A DNA stretch of 64,000 nt, from NCBI RefSeq assembly GCF_010093815.1, contig NW_022985552.1, positions 1,765,827 to 1,829,826 of the forward strand, given 5' to 3'. The stretch comes from Pseudovirgaria hyperparasitica (Eukaryota; Ascomycota; Dothideomycetes; Acrospermales; Acrospermaceae). Position numbers and translations under genes: made by a program. The first letter of the stretch is position 1. Each line of letters begins with the position of its first letter. The notes beneath the pieces were generated by a model. The model had not been told where the DNA came from. It saw nothing but the letters and a program-made list of their open reading frames with translations, and searched no databases. Shown piece by piece: positions 24,471 to 64,000 of the stretch.

Positions 24471-27400
24471 TCACTTACAGCACGGCACCGGAAAATACGA
24501 ATCCCAATTCTCCGTCAAGTACTTGTGGTAATGGACGCTCTCAGGCAGCGTGTCGCCTTCGAAAAACCTCTTCGTCGTCTTCTTGACTTCTCCCTGTGGT
24601 CCTCTTACCGGAGCCAGGTTCTCCAGGCGACCGACGACCTTGAGCATCGACGTGAGCGAGATCCTGGTCATCTTGAGGCCGAGGCACTGGTGTGGGCCGG
24701 CGCCAAGGTGGATGTATGACTCTACCGGGCGATTGAGGTTGACTTTGTCCGGGTCCGGGAATATGGCGGGGTCATGCGAGGCGCTTCGAAGGTTGACAAA
24801 CACTCGTTCTCCCTTCTTCACGTGCATTGTCTTGTCGCCGTCTTGTATGCTTGTGTCTTGAGTGACCTGTCGGATGACGGCAGTCTCGCCATTCAGACGC
24901 GATGCCTCGAGGACGTAGTGCATCAGTTTGTCGAAACTCGCGTCGTCGTCCAGCTTCGAGAGCCTGTGGATCTCGGGGAGGTGCTCTTGGCCCCTCGTGA
25001 AGAAGTAATCCAGAATCTGTCCGAACAGTTGGCCTTGGTTAGAAACCATTCCGCCCGCAGTACCCAAGATCTGACCCCAGACAAGATCATGCACTGACGT
25101 ATCCGTATCCAGGAGCCGCTTGATGAGCTTCTTGCCGTAGTCTTGGAGCGGAGATGATTCTGGCCAGATGAGCTGCATGGCCGAACTTATGATGCCGCCT
25201 GCCTTGATTTCTTGGACGTTTGCCTCGACAAGCTTACCAAGTGTCTGCGTTGCTTTGGCGGCCTTTTGTCGCAGCGAAAACGACGAGCCTGGGTCGAGGT
25301 CGAAGAAGATGGCAGCGAATACAGCAGTCATGATCAGATAGAGCTCGTGCTCGGTGAAAACACCCGGTCTGTTGTCCGTCTTGAGTGGAAGCATGAAGAG
25401 TTCCGCGCAGAAGTGAACGTGTGCAAGATTGCCAACGTCACGGACGATGTCCACATGCTTCTTACCAGCAAGTTTGTAACTCTTCTCGTGCAGAAGCTTC
25501 TGTGTGATGTGTTCGTAGTATTTGCGCACTTCTTGGTTCCAGCCATCGATATAGAGAGCCTTCTCCATCCTCTTACGCGACTCCGTGTTCTGGTACCCGT
25601 CTCCGGCAAGCATGAAGTTCTTGGCCGGCTTACCCATGAGGAGCTCCATAGCTTGTCCCCAAGTCACGTTGAATAGCTTCTGATCACCTAGTATCTGATC
25701 TGCGGCCTTGTATGAGAAAGTCATGTGGTGCTCGCCCTTGAACTTGGGCTTCTCCCACGTATAAAGATGGTCAGACTCGAGATCTTTAAGCGCGACCTTC
25801 ATCGCGTCCGGCGTAGTCATTGGGAAGTGAGCATAAACGGAGTTCGGTTCGAAATGGTCGGGGAAGGCGCGGGCAAAAAGCTTGTAAAACACACAACCAT
25901 TATTGACGTCCAGATCAAAGTCAACTTCCTTGTAACCCCAGTTGGTGAGTTTCCTCGGGTGATAGTCAACAGTGTAGAAGCGATCACCTCTGACAAGTGC
26001 AACAGCGTCACTCAGTACCGCTCTGGAGACTGTGTAAGACGGACAGAGGCCGGAACCTGGTGCCATGGGTTGTTTCGCTGACTCGGCAACGATTCCTGGG
26101 TATATCTCCACCAGATCTGGATGATCATAAAGGTTCTTCAGTTCGTCAGCTACCTGGGGGTTGATATCCTCGAACGTCCGGTGTGGTTCCAGACCGAAAT
26201 GCTTCCTGAACTCGTTGAGAGTGGCAAGGTTCCACGCACGGGACTGCTTGATGCCTAGAATCTCGATTGCTCGCATCACCGCCGGCACGCGTTGAGCGCC
26301 GAACGAGTTTGCACAATCCTCGATGCTCTCCGTGATTATCTTAACCAGGTCGTCGTCCTTGAAGCGTCCCGTCTTGTCATCCCTCTTCAGGCCCCCGAAA
26401 GTACGCTGAGCAGGATCCTTTGGAGATTTCTCATCTATTTCCTTCAGCTTCGCGAGGAACTCGTACTCTCCAATAGTGTTCGCATCCCTGTCACCGAATA
26501 GCTGTTCCCATAGCTGCTTTGTCCACTCCTCGTCACGCTTGGACACGGTGGCGTGCCATCGATAGACCAGGTTGAACTCGGCGGACACCTGGTTGCCGAC
26601 GCCTAATTCTGGACCATCCTTGATGGGAGCTCTTGGGTTAAGCTGCCATTTGCTGTTCGTTCGGTTAAGGTTCAGAATCGTGCGGACATAGTCAATGAGG
26701 ATGATATTGATGTAGAGGCCGCAGGTGATCAATCGGCCAGTCTGGAAGAGCGCCTCCTCATACTTCCTGTCCTTGATTGTGTCTTTCCAGTCCTGAGTCT
26801 CCTCGGGGAACTTTTTATAGACTTTATCTTTGGGATCTTTGAGCTTGGAGAACTGCTTGCCCTCGTCAATCGCAGCAAGCTGTTCGACCACGTAGTTGTG
26901 GAAGCGATTGAACATGACCAGTAGCACGCTGACACCAGGAGGAAAAGACAGAAGTCGCTTTTCGGAAAATGTGTCGGGTTTAAGCTTTCCGTCCTTGAAA
27001 GTTCTGATCCTATCCTGCTCTTCCTGGTTGCTACCGTACAGCGGAGCCAGATCTAGGTACGAGGATGTGAGGGACATGGAGTAGTCCTTGTGGTCTGTAC
27101 GGAAACAGTCATGCACTATGATAGAAGCTACGTAAAAGAGCACCGAAGAAATACGGTTAGGATGTTTGTTTGCCTCATAGTCGTAGTGTTCCGGACGAGC
27201 CATCAACGCATCGAAGAGAAGGCCGGGATCAGGCCTGGCGCCAGGCTGCACGGTCATAGGCTTGACCGACCTGGCATATGGCATGTTTGCCGCGCCCATT
27301 CCGGGGAACTTTAGACTCTATGAATTGTTAGTTGGTTCAATCCCGGGTTACAGGAGACATGGAAAGTTCTCCTCGCATCTTACATTATACGAGCCATCAG

Positions 27401-30976: not shown

Positions 30977-32004
30977 TCAGTATATCCCCGGAAGAATGGC
31001 AAACCGCTTCTTCTTGTACTTGTCCGGGAACTCCTTTCTGTAGCGATACTCACGCTTCTTCGCCCACGCCGCCATTTGTCCCACCGCCGGCACCATAAAC
31101 ACCGCCGTGCTCGCACTCATCGTGCACAGCATGATCCCAATCCACGCAACCGTCTCCCACATGTAGTTCGGGCACGTCACAAGCTTGAAGCCATAACCCT
31201 GTGGAATCCCGCGCTCCGTACTACCCGGCTTGCGCAAGTTCCGTAGCGTCATGTGTGCGCGGAAATTCTCAAACTCGCCAATGACGAACAGCACGATGCC
31301 CGCATACATGATGCGCGGGTCCGGATGCGTGGCAGCGAGCGCGGTAGGTGCGTAGGTCCAGTAGGCGATGTTGAGGCCTGCAATAAGCCAGTAGTGGCCT
31401 GAGTTCTTGTAGACGTTGAAGAAGGGCATTGTGGCGAGCGAGAAGCGGTGGACAAACAGGGTCTCGAGCTCGCGCTTGAGGAAGTGGAGGGTGACGAGTA
31501 TCATGGCCATGAACTGCTGATGCGAGGCAGGCTCGGTCGCGTTGCGGTATATGTAGGGGCGGAGGAAGTAGATGAGGGGGTGGATGAGCATTGGGCCGGC
31601 ATATTCAATAAGGTAGCAGGTTTGCCAGCCGATTTGAGGACCTGTGGGAAGGACCTGTTAGACTGAGAATTTGGTGTAGAGGGGGTTGAGTGTCCTACCT
31701 AGATCCTTGACGTTGATGGTGCTCTGGTCTCTCAAGCCGGTGTCGTGTACAGTTACATCCTTCGAATTCGGGATGGCGGCGCCATCGCTACCTTTGGTGA
31801 TTCTCAATCGGTGGATGGAGAACTTGGATTCCGCAGCAATCTTCTTGTAGAGCTGCTCAGCGGTGTCGGATGCTGAGATGTTCGTTTCTTCCGGAAGGCC
31901 TCGAATGGGCTTGCCTGGACAATTGTGAGCAGTTGATGCCTCTAGTATCATATAGTCAACATACCTCGAGGCCTTACAGCTAGGGACAGCTGTTTGGACG
32001 TCAT
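30977..32004 (-). CDS. TSC13: Very-long-chain enoyl-CoA reductase (TSC13), 306 aa, three exons
   Basis: Catalyses the last step of each very-long-chain fatty acid elongation cycle in the ER membrane, reducing trans-2-enoyl-CoA with NADPH. Exons are 31965-32004, 31699-31914 and 30977-31641; introns of 50 and 57 bases both interrupt a codon after its first base. Residues 1-85 form the ubiquitin-like N-terminus typical of the family. The rest is the steroid 5-alpha-reductase type C-terminal domain with several hydrophobic segments and the blocks NSGHYW, GEFENFRAHMTLR, GIPQGYGF and CPNYMWE. It ends with basic KYKKKRFAILPGIY, matching family C-termini. Length is that of yeast and mould Tsc13. Its start lies 412 bases from the stop of the upstream UIM gene. 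Confidence 0.95.
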
Positions 32005-32416: not shown

Positions 32417-33721
32417 CTATGCTTGTGCGTCGAAACCATCCTCCCAACGTGAGACTTCATCAGTAGCCGCGTCAAACTCTGCCGTTTTCTCTCCGTTCTG
32501 GGCCCAAGGCGTGTATGGCGGTGCCTCCCCAGTAGCGGCATTCGAGTCTTGATGTGCCAGCTTCGCATCCCATTTCTTGCCCTCTGTGGCGCTCCACTTC
32601 TGCCAGTCTGCATGGTGCACTGGTGACACCGTCCGCTGGTCGATTGATACTCGTTCTCGCTTCTGAGCATCTGGATCTCGCTCCCCAGACCAGACTATGG
32701 CGGGAGCAGTGTCGGCATGGATGAGAGGAGGAGGCTGTAGTGTGAGTGCAGGTGCAGGTGCAGGTGCAGGCATGGGCATTGATGGACGAGAATGCAGGAT
32801 TGGGGGCGATATGAGAGTGTGTGTTGGGGAACGGACTGTAGGAGTGGCAATAACGGCGGCGGGCACAGGACGAGATGGTGCTGCCCACTGGGTGCCATTC
32901 TGGCTACGTCTGATGGCCTCCTCAAATTCACGGTCGAAATTGTCTCTCACCTGGGAAGCTCTCTGTGGCTCTTGCCGGCTCGCTCGGATTGCCTCTGCCA
33001 AGTCATTATCAAAAGTATGGCTACTGCTAGGTGCTGACGAGGGCTCTTGCTGACTGGCACGAATTGCAGCCTGTAAATCTTCATCAAAGGCAGTGATTGC
33101 CGGGGGTACTCTATGCGGCTCTTGTTGACTAGCGCGTATGGCTTCTTCTAGATCATCGTCAAAGGTGTCACTGGGCTTAGGTGTGCTCTGTGGCTCTTGT
33201 TGGCTTGCGAGGATGGCGTCTGCCAGATCTTTGTCGAGTACAGGAGGCTTGGGCTGTTGCAAGCCTTCCTGGATGCTGAGTTCCATGACTCTACGTAGTA
33301 TCTCCGCTTCATTCTCCGTATTACTAGGCTCTGGGGTAGTCCGAGAGTTGTCTTGGTGAAAGCTCCGCGGTACGTGGAACTGACCACCAGTGCTTGGCCC
33401 CCAATCTCGATAGTCGCCTGGTACACTGTCTTGCTCTAGGGCACGTAGCTCTGCTTTCATCCTTGCTCTTTGCCGACGCTCCTTCACGGCCAGTATATCG
33501 CAACAACGCATCACGGGTGGCCCACCCAAACATTGAGGGTCATCTTTGCTTCTATGCCCGCGACAGTGCGTATTGGAACATCGACGTGGTCCAAAGCCTT
33601 CGTAATTGGCGAAGCAGATACCAGAATCGCATCTTTTGGTCTGTCGGAGGTGCTCACATGCATATTGCCGTGGAAAGTCGTTCATCCATCTGCCGTTGAT
33701 CTGAAGAGGGCCGTTATCCAT
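32417..33721 (-). CDS. Tandem ubiquitin-interacting-motif protein with Cys-rich N-terminus, 434 aa
   Basis: One exon; the first in-frame ATG is at 33719-33721. Residues 20-75 are Cys/His-rich (C22, C31, C36, C48, C53, H56, C64, C73, C74); the C-x8-C-x4-C start resembles a zinc finger but fits no family I can name. Then come six ubiquitin-interacting motifs of the form acidic-x-acidic-L-x-x-A-I-x-x-S. The first, degenerate one is at about 137-153. Five regular ones start near 163, 188, 213, 238 and 263, with an exact 25-residue step. Cores are DLADAILAS, DLEEAIRAS, DLQAAIRAS, DLAEAIRAS and EFEEAIRRS. The C-terminal third is Pro-rich and disordered. Such arrays usually bind polyubiquitin chains. 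No catalytic domain is seen, so an adaptor role is inferred. The ATE1 stop lies about 210 bases upstream on the same strand. Confidence 0.75.
   Translation of the reverse strand: MDNGPLQINGRWMNDFPRQYACEHLRQTKRCDSGICFANYEGFGPRRCSNTHCRGHRSKDDPQCLGGPPVMRCCDILAVKERRQRARMKAELRALEQDSVPGDYRDWGPSTGGQFHVPRSFHQDNSRTTPEPSNTENEAEILRRVMELSIQEGLQQPKPPVLDKDLADAILASQQEPQSTPKPSDTFDDDLEEAIRASQQEPHRVPPAITAFDEDLQAAIRASQQEPSSAPSSSHTFDNDLAEAIRASRQEPQRASQVRDNFDREFEEAIRRSQNGTQWAAPSRPVPAAVIATPTVRSPTHTLISPPILHSRPSMPMPAPAPAPALTLQPPPLIHADTAPAIVWSGERDPDAQKRERVSIDQRTVSPVHHADWQKWSATEGKKWDAKLAHQDSNAATGEAPPYTPWAQNGEKTAEFDAATDEVSRWEDGFDAQA
32923..33297 (-). repeat. 75-bp coding repeat giving the UIM ladder
   Basis: Five regular units of 25 codons, preceded by one degenerate unit, encode the UIM array. 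Neighbouring units share the acidic-Leu-x-x-Ala-Ile core and a Ser-Gln-Gln-Glu-Pro end, but synonymous and linker positions differ, so the duplication is not recent. Confidence 0.7.
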
Positions 33722-33933: not shown

Positions 33934-35772
33934 TCAGCGAATCTTAACAATCATGCCTTGGGACACGACTGGCCCCACGGAGGCTGCCAACTCGGCAATG
34001 GTTCCTTTGATGGTCCGGGAATCCGTCACAGATCCGGGATTAAACTTCATCACATCCTATTCTCTAGTCAGTCATCAAGAACACTTCGCAGAGGTAAATG
34101 GATCCAGATTTGAAGTGTACTTACGCCCCACTTCAATACACGGTTCCCCACTGAAACCTTGATTGTCTTCAAATCCACCTGGTCTTCAAGTTCCTCCACT
34201 GACATTACTCCTGGCATGCTTATGGAAAACAAAGAAGCACCCTCGTCAGCCGCGGCAGCAGCTTCCTTTGCGCTCTCATGTGCCGTCTGATGTGGGAGAG
34301 ATGATAGTTTAGCGCGGGCGGCAGCATCTGCAGACTTCTCAATGTCTTCCCTCGACAAGGAGACGTACTTTTTCGTGTCAAGCAGCGCCCTCATCCGGCC
34401 TTCAAGTGGATTCCAGTCAAGTGACTCTGGATCTAGGACATACTGTGGTTTATAGGTGCCCTTGTAACGCATTTTGACGCATGAGTGAATGTAGAAGCCC
34501 ATATAGTAGAACTGGTAGTGGCCCTCCATGGTGAACATGGCCTCACGAAGAGCACTTAACTTGCCAAAGTACCATTGGGAGACAGATTCGTGATAGAGGA
34601 AATACACACTGCTAACACCGTGTGGCAGAAGGTCGAGAACACCAATGGCAATCAATTGACCGTCGAGGCGGTAGCACTGGTGGTAGGAGCCTAGCTTTTG
34701 CTCTTTGCCAGCGATGTTGCGGACCACTTGCTGCAGAGGCGAGTCGCAAAGAAAACGCCTGAAACCGTCGCGAGATATCTCGCTGGGTTGCTCACGATGG
34801 ACATTGCGCTGGTAGTTCTCGAAGGCTTGATATTTTTCTTCAGTGAAGTCGGCAGGCTCAAGAGTGACTTCGAAGCGATGAGCTGGCTCAGGTGGGAGGC
34901 TCAGGTTGGCATATTCGCTTTCGCGAAGTGCATGGGCTAGATCGAAGCTACTTCGTTCGCGCGCTTTCTGTCTATCAAGGATATAATCAGTGGCAGTGGA
35001 TGAAGACCAGAATAGCTGCACATACTCTCTGGATCTCGGACGTAATCTAGCAGATTCTTTGATGTAGTCATCTCCTAGTACGAATTTATTCCACTTGTTC
35101 AGAGCTTGTCTTTGATCCTTCGACGGAGCGAATTCGCTGACAGGCAGCCTTTGTGGCGATTAGTGAATGTAGAGTAGTAGTAGTAATAGTGAGGCATTTC
35201 ATCGGACCTAATGGTGTAGTAAGGACAGCACGATCGGCAGACGTCTTGTTTGTAGAGCAGTGTGCCTGATCTAGGTAGGTCAGAGGACGACGAATCAGCA
35301 TGGGTAGGATAGATATTGAATTAGTGGAAGAGATGGACACGGACCGCCTCCAACCTCTATCAACAAGTTCCTGGTAATGGTCTACATTCAATTGTTTCGT
35401 AAAAACGTAGTATGATGCGCCTAGAGAGTATGACGGTAAGAAACGGCAATTGGAGGATGTGGTAGTGAGGAGCGGTGAGTGAGTGAGAGACGTACTGGAG
35501 TCTGGAGATCTTTGTTTGGTGGAATCATGTTTGCAGTAGCCACATGAAGAAGTATGATAGCCTGTGTGGCACAGGGAAAGGCTTGTCGTCAGTAAGAGGA
35601 AGCGATGAGCGGTAAGAGAGGGTCGCCGTTTCCGGCCAGGGACAGACGGCAGGGACGAACGAGAGGGGCGGTGGAAGGGCACGAGGCGAAGGCTAGGCTT
35701 GTGAGTGGAGAAGAACAGACCTGCGGGTGTTAAGATGGAAGGCGACTCGGGAGAAGGGACCGGGGCTTGCAT
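33934..35772 (-). CDS. ATE1: Arginyl-tRNA-protein transferase (ATE1), 449 aa, seven exons
   Basis: Transfers Arg from Arg-tRNA to N-terminal Asp, Glu or oxidised Cys, creating Arg/N-degrons for ubiquitination. Exons: 35721-35772, 35496-35561, 35345-35420, 35208-35270, 35026-35148, 34125-34971, 33934-34056. Every junction keeps frame and rebuilds conserved blocks. The N-terminal domain has GYHTSSCGYCKH (C24, C27) and CRSCCPYYTIR (C79, C80), the CxxC/CC set reported to hold an Fe-S cluster in yeast Ate1. Next come LNVDHYQELVDRGWRRSG and, in exon 5, DQRQALNKWNKFVLGDDY. The C-terminal acetyltransferase-like domain has GSYHQCYRLDGQLIAIGVLD, SSVYFLYH and YYMGFYIHSC. A 54-base intron (34972-35025) is a multiple of three, so its retention would add 18 residues without a frameshift. 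The first intron (159 bases) is long for this genome. Confidence 0.93.
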
Positions 35773-50634: not shown

Positions 50635-53600
50635 TTAACGAGGAGGCCCAATGGGGCCCGGGTATCCTGATGCAGAATGAGAAGTACTGGGTCGTCCGCT
50701 ATCGACGGAAGCCCGTGGGTCGTATCGGGGCGTAAGTTCGCCAGATGTACTGGCGCCAAAAGGAAATTTAGATTCATAACGCACTGAAGTTGGAGTCGCC
50801 CATGCGTGCGATGGATGAGCGGGATCCTCGTCAGGGAGGTTTATACCACTATCGTTCCAAGGATTGCGGTAGCCACTTCCCTGGGATTCAATACTAATGA
50901 GTGATGCTTTGGAAGCATTGCTGGAAGCGTGTTTGAAGAGAGATCCTGGCGAATTGGATCCATTTTTGCGACGCTCAAGCATGGAAGAGAACGACCCAAT
51001 GCTACCAGGTTTACGTAGCTTGTCAAGAAATCCAGAGCGTTCGCCAACGTCGTCAGCGAAGTTCACACGGGTCGGGGAGTCTGTCGCCGTAAGATCCAGA
51101 CTCGAATTCGTCTTCTGGAGAAGCTTGGATTCGAAGAATGGAAGAGATTGCTCGAATGAATCAGACTTTGGTCGAGGAATGGCTCCCTTTATAGTCTCTG
51201 CATCCAAACCGTGAGTCACGAGCTTGGTGATCAAAAAGTCGATAGCATCTTTCAGCCCTCCGGCGTTGTTGCGGGTGTAGCACAGAGTCAAGGTCTCTTG
51301 ATCTTTCTCGTCGCTGCTGGAGCCATCGCGGCGTGGACCTAGCTGAACCTCGACAACGTACTGATCCTTGAGCATATTCTTTACGTCTTTCTCGAACTCG
51401 TCTGAGCGTAGGAACGACTTCAGATCCTGGTTTGCTGCAAAGGCAATGTCATGGCTTTCAGGGACCATACCCAAGAATTCGTCCACAGCTTGAGGCACCT
51501 GATATTCAGGTCCTGAGATAGTGATCATGTCGCTAGCTTGCTCAGTGCTTGGGAATGTGATCTTGCAATTCCATTTCTTCTCGAGCTCCTCAATCTCGCG
51601 CATACGAGCAATAAGCTCTCGATGATAAAGACGGTTGACAACGACATGCTCGGAAACAAATTCAGCATCGGACTTTTCAACCATATCCATGATCTCTTGT
51701 TTGACCAAATCGAGATTTTGAGCGTTGCGAGCTGGAGTTCGGCAGATGACATTATCGACCTTGATATCATCGTCTTCTTTACCAAGACCACCTCGATCCA
51801 TAGCATTTGAGAACTTGACAAACACTGAATACTTTTTCATGATACGTTGGATATGTTGACCACCGATGCCGATGATACGCTTGTGGTACTGGTCGGGGAC
51901 GTGGAAGGATATTGCGGCAGGCATTTCTTGCTCCACAAGCTCGAGACCACTCTTAGTAGCTTCGTAGAGCGACCCTCGAACAACAATGTAGAAATTGTAT
52001 TCATTCCAGCCATCGAAGACGATCTGTACCGAACTGTGGCTCATGATCTTGTTGATTTTACCATTTTTCTTGCCACTGACAAACTCTTTATGCTCGTTTG
52101 CAAGCTCGAGCTTGACAGACATGCTGTATTGGGATTTTCTCACGAACGGGATGTTGCTAATTACCATCATTGCTGCCTTGACAGCATCATCTGAGCCGAA
52201 GATATGGAAGTTGACCTTTTCGAAGCAGATCTCCGCGCCCGAGTTGATGCAAATGTCAGAAAGCATAGCTCGAACATCGCTAGGTGTTGGGGGCCTCTGG
52301 TTCGGATCGGGTTGAGTAATGAACCAGGTAGCGCTGTAGAATTGCCCAGCAAGTGCCATGACATCGCGAACAGTACGCTCAACGTTGAGTACATCAGTTC
52401 CTTGGACGCGCAGGGTTGCACCAGGGTGATTGCGATGGTCACCAAGTGGTGGGAGAATTACGCAGGAGCCGTTGGTCTCCATGATCTTCTTAATCTTATC
52501 CATGCGTTCAAGAATCAGGCTGTCAAGCTTGGACGGGGTAACAAGAACGCCCTTGGAATATACTTTCTGCTGGACGGTGAGATCATGGAGCATTTTCTTG
52601 GCTTTGAGAATTGCGGTGCTGTCTTCACTCGTGATGATAATCTGGTCATTTGGTCGACGCTGCGAATCAATGGGTGTGTAGCCATAAACGTGCGGGAACG
52701 GGGGAGGGAAGTAGATGGCAGTGTTAGTTGCTGACTCAATTAGTTTGATATTCTTCTTGGCGCGGCCTGAGATCAGAGGGTGCATGGAAAGCTCAAGTCT
52801 CATCATGTCCACGGAGCGGTGAAGCTGATAATCTGTGAGTTACTGGCAACGATACTCTTGGAAGGATTTAGACTTACGATTTGATCAAGCAAGATAAGTA
52901 TCCGAGTTTTCGCATGTTCAGCCGTTTCATAGTCGCCGTAGATGTGGCATCTCAAACGGTTGTCTAGCTTCGTATCAATGATGCTGCCGTTGAAACTTGC
53001 TGCTTCGTCTAATTGCTTAGGATGCAATAAGAAAATATCCGCCTTTAGGGCATTGGCGACTCCGTCAACATGGCTGCGTATGCTGTCCTTTAGATCGTTT
53101 GTCTCATAATCCATGATCATGTCAAAGTCAATATCGATAGTTGAGCATTGCTACGCATGTGATTAGATGCCTTGTATCGACCACTGGGATAGCATTCATG
53201 GCTCGAGGACAGGACTTACCAGCGAGATTGGAGTTTGAGTCATGATCCGTCCACGAATACTCTGGGCGAGTTCAACCTCAGCAGAGATGCAGACATTGGT
53301 AATTGACGTCCTGAGCGGCCCGCGCTGAAAACCAGGCAGGGGTTTCGGCTCAGAAGATAGCACAGTAGCTTGAATCCGGCCGTCACTGCTATCGGCAATC
53401 TCTTTGCACAACGACCTCAACGCGTCGATATTCTCGATATGCACAGGCAGCCTATGATTCGGGGTATCCTCTGGCGTGCCCTCGGGATGCGTCCAGCGCC
53501 TAAAAGCACCAGGACTTGAATATATTATGTCGTCCGGTTCCGGTCCGGCGAGATTCGAATTGAAGGGAACGTTGAAGGACAAAGTGACGGGAGTGCCAGG

Positions 53601-62439: not shown

Positions 62440-64000
62440 CTACTCCTCTTCACTCTCTGAAGCCGCATCATCGTCGCTGCTTGAGTCGTCCTGGTTCGCT
62501 GGAGATACTGGCTCTTCAGATCCTGAACCACCCTGCTTGAACGTCTCGAGTTGACGTTTTATAGCCTCAATGCTGTCTTCCTGTTCCTTCTTGTTCATTG
62601 GCTTGTTCTTCTTGCTCTTGGTCGTCTTGGGAGCTGCAGACTTTGGGGGCTCAAACTCGTCGTCCGAGATCTCATCGTTCTTCTGCATCGATGGTCGTTT
62701 GTTACGGACGAACTTGTACAGCTGACGCAGGACGTCCTCGGGAATCATCTCCATATCTATCTCGAGCTCTTCATCGTTGCCATTCTAAGCAGTGTTAACA
62801 AACAATGTGGTGACGAGTGAAGGGGCCAAAAACTTACGCTTAGGTTTGGACAACCGTTGCGGATTATTTGCATTGCTTTTCCCATGTCGGCTTCACTCAG
62901 TTCACTGATCGACTCCGAAATCTCTTGTTTTTGTTGGAACGTCAAAGGCGTCACGTTCTTGGCTTTCTTGGACTTGCCAGGCTTCGATGATGCCGTTCCA
63001 CCGCTGTTCTTCTTTTGCTTACTGCTCTTACCAGTTTTGCCATTCTTCTTCCCATGCGCCTTCGGTGACGCCTGCTTAGTTGCACTCTCAATAATTTGTT
63101 GTGCTTGGCTATTCAGCATTGCGATTTGTCGTTGTATGTCTAGCAAATCTCTCTGACGTGTGTCTTGTTCGTCATCACTTGCTTCATCATCGTCAGACTC
63201 CTCCGCAGATGAAACTGGGTCTGAAGGTGGCTGATGGTTCGCAATCCATGTTTCTTTTCCAGCCCATAATTCGTTCACTATAGCCTGAAACTCTTTGCCC
63301 ATCTTGTTGATTTCATCATTGTCGGGGTTGAACTTGAAGCAATTGGCGAACATCAGATCGAAGTCGGCTTTAAAATCTTTTGACGTCTGATAATCGCCTT
63401 GCTTGAGCTTCTTGTCTATGGTGCTCATGTCCATAGGTTTCTTGATAACCTTGTGATAAGTCGGGATATTGAGTGCCACAGGATCTACAGGATTCGCGAA
63501 TGGCCAGGAGATTCTCGCGTATTTCTGCTTTTTCACCTCATTCATCACGTGTTCGCAGAATCTCAGTTCGATCTGGAATTTCTTCTTTTTGGGCTTGACG
63601 CTATATGGCAAATCTCTTGGCTTCGGGCGCTGTATCTCTCGCTTAGGTCGGCCATCATTCGTGGTAGAGTCTCTTCGAATGATGGGAACACCGTCAATAG
63701 GAGCATATGTGGTAGGTGATGCCGCAACAGGAGCCGGATGTGGAATGACGGGTTTCTCTGATTTAGTGGTAGATCGACGACGCGTCTCCTTCTTGGTAGG
63801 AGCCGAGGGAGCTGGCTTGGCAGGCTGTGGGACCTGCACACTGCCCCGAGTGGCATTGGACTTTATAGCTCTTGCCATGAATGCTTCTAGAACGGTGCCT
63901 GCAGTCGATACGGGATGCGATGATCCATTGAAAAGAAATGAGTTCTTGACCATCTGGCACATATCAGAGATGAATTCGTCCACTGTGCCATATTTGTCGT
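62440..64000 (-). CDS. BDF1: BET-family bromodomain protein (Bdf1-like), C-terminal 501 residues
   Basis: Acetyl-histone reader linked to TFIID and, in yeast, SWR1. The gene runs off the right edge; visible exons are 62838-64000 and 62440-62784, with a 53-base intron. The first visible residues (DKYGTVDEFISDMCQMVKN) are the end of the first bromodomain. A Pro/Lys-rich linker follows. The second bromodomain (about visible residues 150-270) has WPFANPVDPVALNIPTYHKVIKKPMDM and a FNPDND loop, with the acetyl-lysine-binding Asn in that loop. A basic Lys/Ser stretch follows. The extraterminal NET domain begins TPLTFQQKQEISESI; the intron splits it at NLS-NGNDEELEIDME. The end is an acidic Ser/Glu tail (SSSDDDAASESEEE). 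Order and spacing match fungal Bdf1. Confidence 0.94.

Follow-up and report, generated by a model that had tools for sequence, protein, structure and literature searches.

The 64,000-nucleotide window analysed here, from the ascomycete Pseudovirgaria hyperparasitica, contains on its reverse strand a gene for a protein with a row of UIM-like motifs, subsequently termed UIM-ladder protein (Table 1). The gene is located between two further frames: (i) 34068-34538 (-), encoding the C-terminal domain of an arginyl-tRNA-protein transferase (ATE1), and (ii) 30977-31591 (-), encoding a steroid-dehydrogenase domain, by reading a TSC13/TECR-like enoyl reductase. The coding frame is an uninterrupted single exon of 434 codons (448 codons from stop to stop); since the longest frame arising by chance in 200 Markov sequences of 4 kb each has 292 codons, it is far beyond chance for DNA of this window. 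One full-length match of the gene was found in its own genome (35.0 Mb, 59 contigs). Elsewhere in the window, a single frame at 24471-27299 (-) combines haem peroxidase and cytochrome P450 domains and is presumably of the fatty-acid dioxygenase (Ppo) type, and a bromodomain/BET protein and a multi-KH RNA-binding protein with a Mug60-type KH domain are encoded at 62757-63962 (-) and 50635-52806 (-), respectively.

Table 1 Features of the UIM-ladder gene (window positions) and location of the second Cys/His-start UIM gene (contig position)
Feature	Residues	Position	Strand	Remark
UIM-ladder protein, single-exon coding frame	434 aa	32417..33721	-	
Cys/His-rich module (8 Cys, 3 His)	22-74	33500..33658	-	without Pfam family; AlphaFold pLDDT <50
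Predicted charged helix	70-98	33428..33514	-	AlphaFold
U1, variant UIM (Ala to Val at core), Ser149	136-152	33266..33316	-	predicted helix in both models
U2 repeat unit, Ser173	159-183	33173..33247	-	
U3 repeat unit, Ser198	184-208	33098..33172	-	
U4 repeat unit, Ser223	209-233	33023..33097	-	sole unit over the Pfam UIM cut-off by itself
U5 repeat unit, Ser248	234-258	32948..33022	-	
U6 repeat unit, Ser273	259-283	32873..32947	-	nearly or wholly fused with U5 in predicted helix
Ala/Pro-rich tail	284-434	32420..32872	-	mostly low-confidence; short predicted helices at 371-385
L010/L015, second Cys/His-start UIM gene		G000:C4:135140-136384	-	

The codon-usage score of the whole frame (0.132) is the best of the three sense frames (others 0.014 and -0.084), and a synonymous-codon test, which separates coding from non-coding DNA poorly, yielded z values of 2.2 for the whole frame and 0.6 for residues 1-112. 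Since the codon-usage score of residues 1-112 is lower in the frame of the gene (-0.073) than in another frame (0.114), the exact start of the protein is not proven. The ATG at 33721 lies in a favourable start context (A at -3, G at +4); Met71 and Met88 are possible later starts, with either of which the Cys/His-rich module would be mostly or wholly lost.

All eight cysteines of the protein are confined to this N-terminal module, which also comprises histidines at positions 24, 52 and 56. Equally tight clustering of eight cysteines occurred in 3 of 1,000,000 random placements, and the module is probably metal-binding. Two cuts of the N-terminus (region of residues 1-112) matched none of the zinc-binding Pfam families up to an E-value of 10, and the AlphaFold model does not resolve the fold of the module. 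The adjoining predicted charged helix includes a basic stretch (RRQRARMK, residues 82-89), a possible nuclear signal. At the other end of the protein, the coding sequence of the tail contains a GTGCAG hexamer repeat (window 32746-32770), which encodes a Pro-Ala run and is perhaps a length-variable spot. The original prediction of a Cys/His-rich module ahead of the ladder and a disordered tail behind it agrees with this arrangement of the cysteines and with the low-confidence, Ala/Pro-rich nature of the tail.

The ladder itself consists of five motifs (U2-U6), all four spacings between their core serines being exactly 25 residues, and of a variant motif (U1) with Val instead of the core Ala, the serine of which lies 24 residues ahead of that of U2. 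The ladder as originally predicted, i.e., five motifs at precisely this pitch preceded by a degenerate sixth, is therewith confirmed as a real feature of the sequence. Autocorrelation of the protein reaches 0.39 at lags 25 and 50 and 0.32 at lag 75, compared to a top value of 0.22 in 5000 shuffles (lags 5-79). Across all six frames of the window (127,996 codons), 57 loose UIM cores were counted, five of which constitute the ladder. The UIM consensus (hydrophobic at -7, Ala at -4, hydrophobic at -3, Ser at 0) is matched by five of the six motifs, U1 deviating by Val for Ala. In U2-U6 the hydrophobic residue at -7, Ala at -4, Ile at -3 and Ser at 0 are kept without exception, in agreement with the consensus as quoted in an excerpt of PMC8273247. 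Two or three acidic residues are found at -11 to -8 in each of the six motifs, and Glu at +3 is kept in U2-U5, U6 lacking an acidic residue at this position.

Searching the Pfam UIM profile (PF02809), as suggested along with the original prediction, gave 23.8 bits with the complete protein, above the cut-off of 21, and 27.2 bits with three matched stretches for the isolated array. Together with the consensus positions kept in U2-U6, this score above the cut-off upholds the identification of the repeats as UIMs. Presented as single 27-residue pieces, U4 passed with 22.5 bits and U1 scored 13.6 bits, and the profile did not match U2, U3, U5 and U6. Among the controls, two UIMs of the Vps27-like protein of the same genome reached 24.1 and 23.4 bits, and UIM1 and UIM2 of RAP80 18.4 and 13.2 bits, respectively. 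The low scores of the RAP80 controls indicate that the single-motif test is insensitive, and by this test each individual rung of the ladder is not proven. The related UIM_2 profile (PF23625) stayed below its cut-off of 21 bits with the whole protein (10.9 bits), and likewise recovered the gene below cut-off in a search of the genome (15.1 bits). The RAP80 family profile (PF18282), which matched both RAP80 control fragments, did not match the UIM-ladder protein up to an E-value of 10, and the prokaryote-oriented NCBIfam collection gave no match. A sequence search of the PDB returned a lone match (E-value 0.1), which was judged to be due to chance.

Two further origins of the repeat pattern were considered. 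The array might be a helical repeat unrelated to ubiquitin, for example peptidoglycan-binding-like or simply amphipathic, with a chance likeness to UIMs. Such a likeness would be in line with the score of PG_binding_1 (PF01471) on the isolated array (27.6 bits, cut-off 23), which is about that of UIM on the same piece, and with U3, which as a single motif matched only PF01471 (12.2 bits, below cut-off). In the full protein, however, PF01471 drops to 19.9 bits, only 20 of its 57 profile positions are matched and the repeat has merely 25 residues, and on these grounds a PF01471 identity was rejected. Moreover, U2-U6 without exception carry Ala and Ser at conserved positions of the UIM consensus, leaving a chance likeness improbable. 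For annotation, PF01471 represents a false-positive trap, since the array passes its cut-off and the whole protein fails; the best-matching stretch spans residues 181-200 (window 33122-33181).

Alternatively, the ladder could have arisen by recent tandem duplication of DNA and be functionally unconstrained, as might be suspected from the constant unit length of 75 bases. Against this, the 75-base units share only 44-65 % identity by pair and their third codon positions 24-44 %, compared to 31-81 % for motif residues (62 % pooled over S-10 to S+3), and the array was not among the repeats found by Tandem Repeats Finder. Identity between repeats at codon positions 1, 2 and 3 amounts to 79, 79 and 34 % in motif columns, a contrast disfavouring recent duplication, and to 56, 58 and 35 % in linker columns. 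With its third positions almost randomised but its protein sequence retained, the motif indicates that the repeats are old and under constraint at the protein level; a recent, unconstrained duplication has hardly any credibility left.

Prolines are present in every linker of the ladder (3, 3, 3, 2 and 1 in U1-U2, U2-U3, U3-U4, U4-U5 and U5-U6, respectively), and in U2-U5 a proline directly follows the motif (Ser+4). AlphaFold was run on the full-length single sequence (mean pLDDT 49; helices 136-152, 164-172, 187-200, 207-224, 235-250 and 252-274) and on the array alone (mean pLDDT 62; helices 133-153, 164-173, 184-200, 208-224 and a single one at 235-274), both models being weak, of low confidence and made without an alignment. 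Both runs interrupt the helix at each step from U1 to U5. A continuous helix of 40 residues spans U5-U6 in the array-alone model, Pro252 falling inside it, and a break at residue 251 separates the two in the full-length model. The agreement of linker prolines with helix breaks suggests four separate rungs followed by a U5-U6 pair, the sole pair that could be helical in the manner of RAP80; linkers joining U1-U5 into a single helix, as in a RAP80-type tandem UIM, are not predicted. The original prediction placed the motifs on one long helix and proposed structure prediction to look for its continuity. This part is not supported, as prolines are found in every linker and the two low-confidence models yield separate helices, with only the last two motifs nearly or wholly fused. 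We therefore read the ladder as beads on mostly flexible linkers and not as a rigid linkage ruler.

A rigid ruler, i.e., a ladder that becomes one long helix upon chain binding and thereby selects K63 linkages by geometry, could draw on a pitch that is exactly that of RAP80, on the arithmetic that 25 residues correspond to about seven helical turns and would let the UIM faces point much alike, and on the single U5-U6 helix of the array-alone model. In excerpts of PMC4276913 and PMC2951365 the RAP80 linker is described to turn helical on K63-diubiquitin, and the term 'molecular ruler' is applied to the RAP80 pair in an excerpt of PMC6787221. The number of prolines in the ladder linkers, as opposed to none in the RAP80 linker, and the helix breaks, which affect U1-U5 in both models and in the full-length model also U5-U6, nevertheless render such a ruler unlikely. 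A role as autophagy adaptor, in which the UIM-like helices would engage ATG8 through its UIM-docking site instead of or besides binding ubiquitin, appears slightly less probable still. The UIM-ladder protein contains neither a Rsp5-type PY pattern nor a plain [WFY]xx[LIV] LIR pattern, and the lack of the latter would leave the UIM route to ATG8. In the excerpt of PMC7693032, UIM-like sequences are stated, with reference to Marshall et al. 2019, to be able to bind ATG8, but a UIM does not a priori confer ATG8 binding; in addition, the ladder motifs fit the ubiquitin-binding consensus well and no pointer to autophagy was seen for the UIM-ladder protein.

In place of these alternatives, the UIM-ladder protein is proposed to be a cytosolic or nuclear, multivalent polyubiquitin receptor that reads mainly chain length or density (probability roughly 0.6). 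Each of the five canonical UIM helices would bind one ubiquitin weakly via its Ala/Ser face, possibly assisted by the variant U1. With the UIMs spaced at a constant 25 residues and their linkers mostly flexible and proline-containing, avidity would retain long chains and single ubiquitins would be held only weakly, such that the ladder would report mainly the length or density of ubiquitin chains. Any preference for K63 chains would originate from the last pair (U5-U6), the linker of which is possibly helical as in RAP80, and the Cys/His-rich module and/or the tail may join the bound cargo to a partner in the manner of an adaptor. The original prediction of a polyubiquitin receptor is likely to be correct, judging from UIM identity, pitch and layout.

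Epsin-1 possesses three tandem UIMs with a 25-residue pitch, like that of the ladder, and a proline-containing first linker. According to excerpts of the respective papers, published tandem UIMs behave differently: (i) the UIMs of epsin-1 bind several chain types, not monoubiquitin (PMC3764048), its UIM1-UIM2 pair binding neither K63- nor K48-diubiquitin (PMC4276913, Box 3) and its UIM2-UIM3 pair, with a linker of RAP80-like length, binding K63-diubiquitin (PMC4276913); (ii) S5a and Vps27, in which the linkers are long, bind every type of ubiquitin weakly and without cooperativity, and in ataxin-3 a longer flexible linker raised the affinity for monoubiquitin but may abolish cooperative binding of diubiquitin (PMC2951365); and (iii) in USP25, the tandem UIMs show a preference for K48 chains (PMC5361193). 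Hence a spacing of 25 residues is no guarantee of avid binding, as the UIM1-UIM2 pair of epsin-1 exemplifies, and, with the K48 preference of USP25 in mind, linkage is not readable from the layout. Given this mixed behaviour, multivalent, chain-length-dependent binding with a modest linkage preference is most likely for the ladder.

Searching the own genome for the UIM family resulted in 12 matches in 11 genes, 7 of the matches exceeding the cut-off; named by reading, they include Rad2-like, epsin-like, Vps27-like (two matches), Hse1-like and App1-like proteins. At least two loose UIM cores were counted in seven of the ten other genes (L002, L003, L004, L005/L006, L010/L015, L012 and L013), counts that refer to the open frame within the ~3 kb fetched and miss cores outside of it or in other exons. 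Only one of these seven multi-core genes, L010, displays a spacing of 25 residues (25 and 25), the others having spacings of 245/80, 30/76, 31, 50, 77 and 20. The Vps27-, Hse1- and Rad2-like proteins share canonical UIM cores with the UIM-ladder protein and differ from it by other domains; in the parts read, the Rad2-like protein contains three loose cores 245 and 80 residues apart and the Hse1-like protein a single one, and the cores of the epsin-like protein are 31 residues apart compared to 25 in the ladder. L003 (G000:C7:1243689-1246739, -) has a frame of 508 residues with three loose UIM cores (spacings 30 and 76) and further look-alikes by eye; UIM is its only Pfam match, with 19.1 bits in the frame (below cut-off) and 24.7 bits in the genome search. 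Two UIM-like cores 20 residues apart are situated at the end of the short open frame of L013 (G000:C6:474875-477922; weak match, 15.4 bits).

A new finding is a second gene in the same genome, the three UIM-like cores of which likewise follow a pitch of exactly 25 residues. L010 resembles the ladder gene in a CxH near its start, more cysteines, a degenerate first UIM, cores at the exact 25-residue pitch and a long tail. Its degenerate motif (Met for Ala) lies 29 residues before the next one, compared to 24 in the UIM-ladder protein, and is followed by three canonical cores; a later CxH...CxxC stretch was observed beyond its array. In BLASTP the array regions of both proteins align with 29 identities in 107 positions (E-value 5e-4 in a single comparison), though without the cores being paired throughout in a common register, and the Cys/His heads do not align. 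Neither head has a paralogue in the own genome beyond the two proteins themselves (E-values up to 10), and the UIM score of L010 (13.5 bits) is below the cut-off. Since the arrays align but the heads do not, and given the absence of other head matches and the low UIM score, common descent of the two genes is, on the sequences, possible rather than shown. Tentatively, and with the odds against it, one may speculate that both genes belong to a so far undescribed family of fungal ladder receptors, characterised by a Cys/His-rich head, a first UIM that is crippled and three to five UIMs at the pitch of RAP80. In such a family the shortest chain recognised would depend on the number of rungs, and linkage preference on the stiffness of the linkers (proline or helix), adjusted individually from one rung to the next. 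Searches for relatives in non-fungal viral and genome contig collections, with 3 and 50 stretches matching a pattern, respectively, confirmed none.

The original prediction knew of no named fungal protein with this layout, and indeed the titles and abstract openings of the openly accessible papers retrieved disclosed no description of such a ladder protein; a survey of septal-pore genes contained no UIM terms. Databases may well list orthologues of the protein under the label of hypothetical proteins. To our knowledge, most natural ubiquitin receptors carry few or irregularly spaced motifs, and for this reason the reading of chain length is difficult to study separately from that of linkage. 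With five nearly equivalent rungs at an unchanging pitch, a natural ladder would make length reading testable through stepwise removal of rungs.

Among known tandem-UIM systems, human RAP80 (UIMC1) shares the pitch of the ladder. Counted on the alignment, the UIM cores of the RAP80 PDB chains are exactly 25 residues apart, Ala to Ala and Ser to Ser, and judged from these sequences the pitch is not unique to the ladder. That a spacing of exactly 25 residues recurs in RAP80 and two P. hyperparasitica genes hints that this pitch may suit ubiquitin chains even without a helical linker. Epsins carry an ENTH domain, contrasting the UIM-ladder protein, for which no ENTH match was obtained up to an E-value of 10. 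The likeness to Vps27 drawn in the original prediction does not extend to the pitch, since the two canonical cores of the protein named Vps27-like by reading in the own genome are 50 residues apart instead of 25. RAP80 has two UIMs and a linker without proline, whereas the ladder has more UIMs and proline in every linker. Motif and pitch are known from these systems; the number of rungs and the head without Pfam family look unusual.
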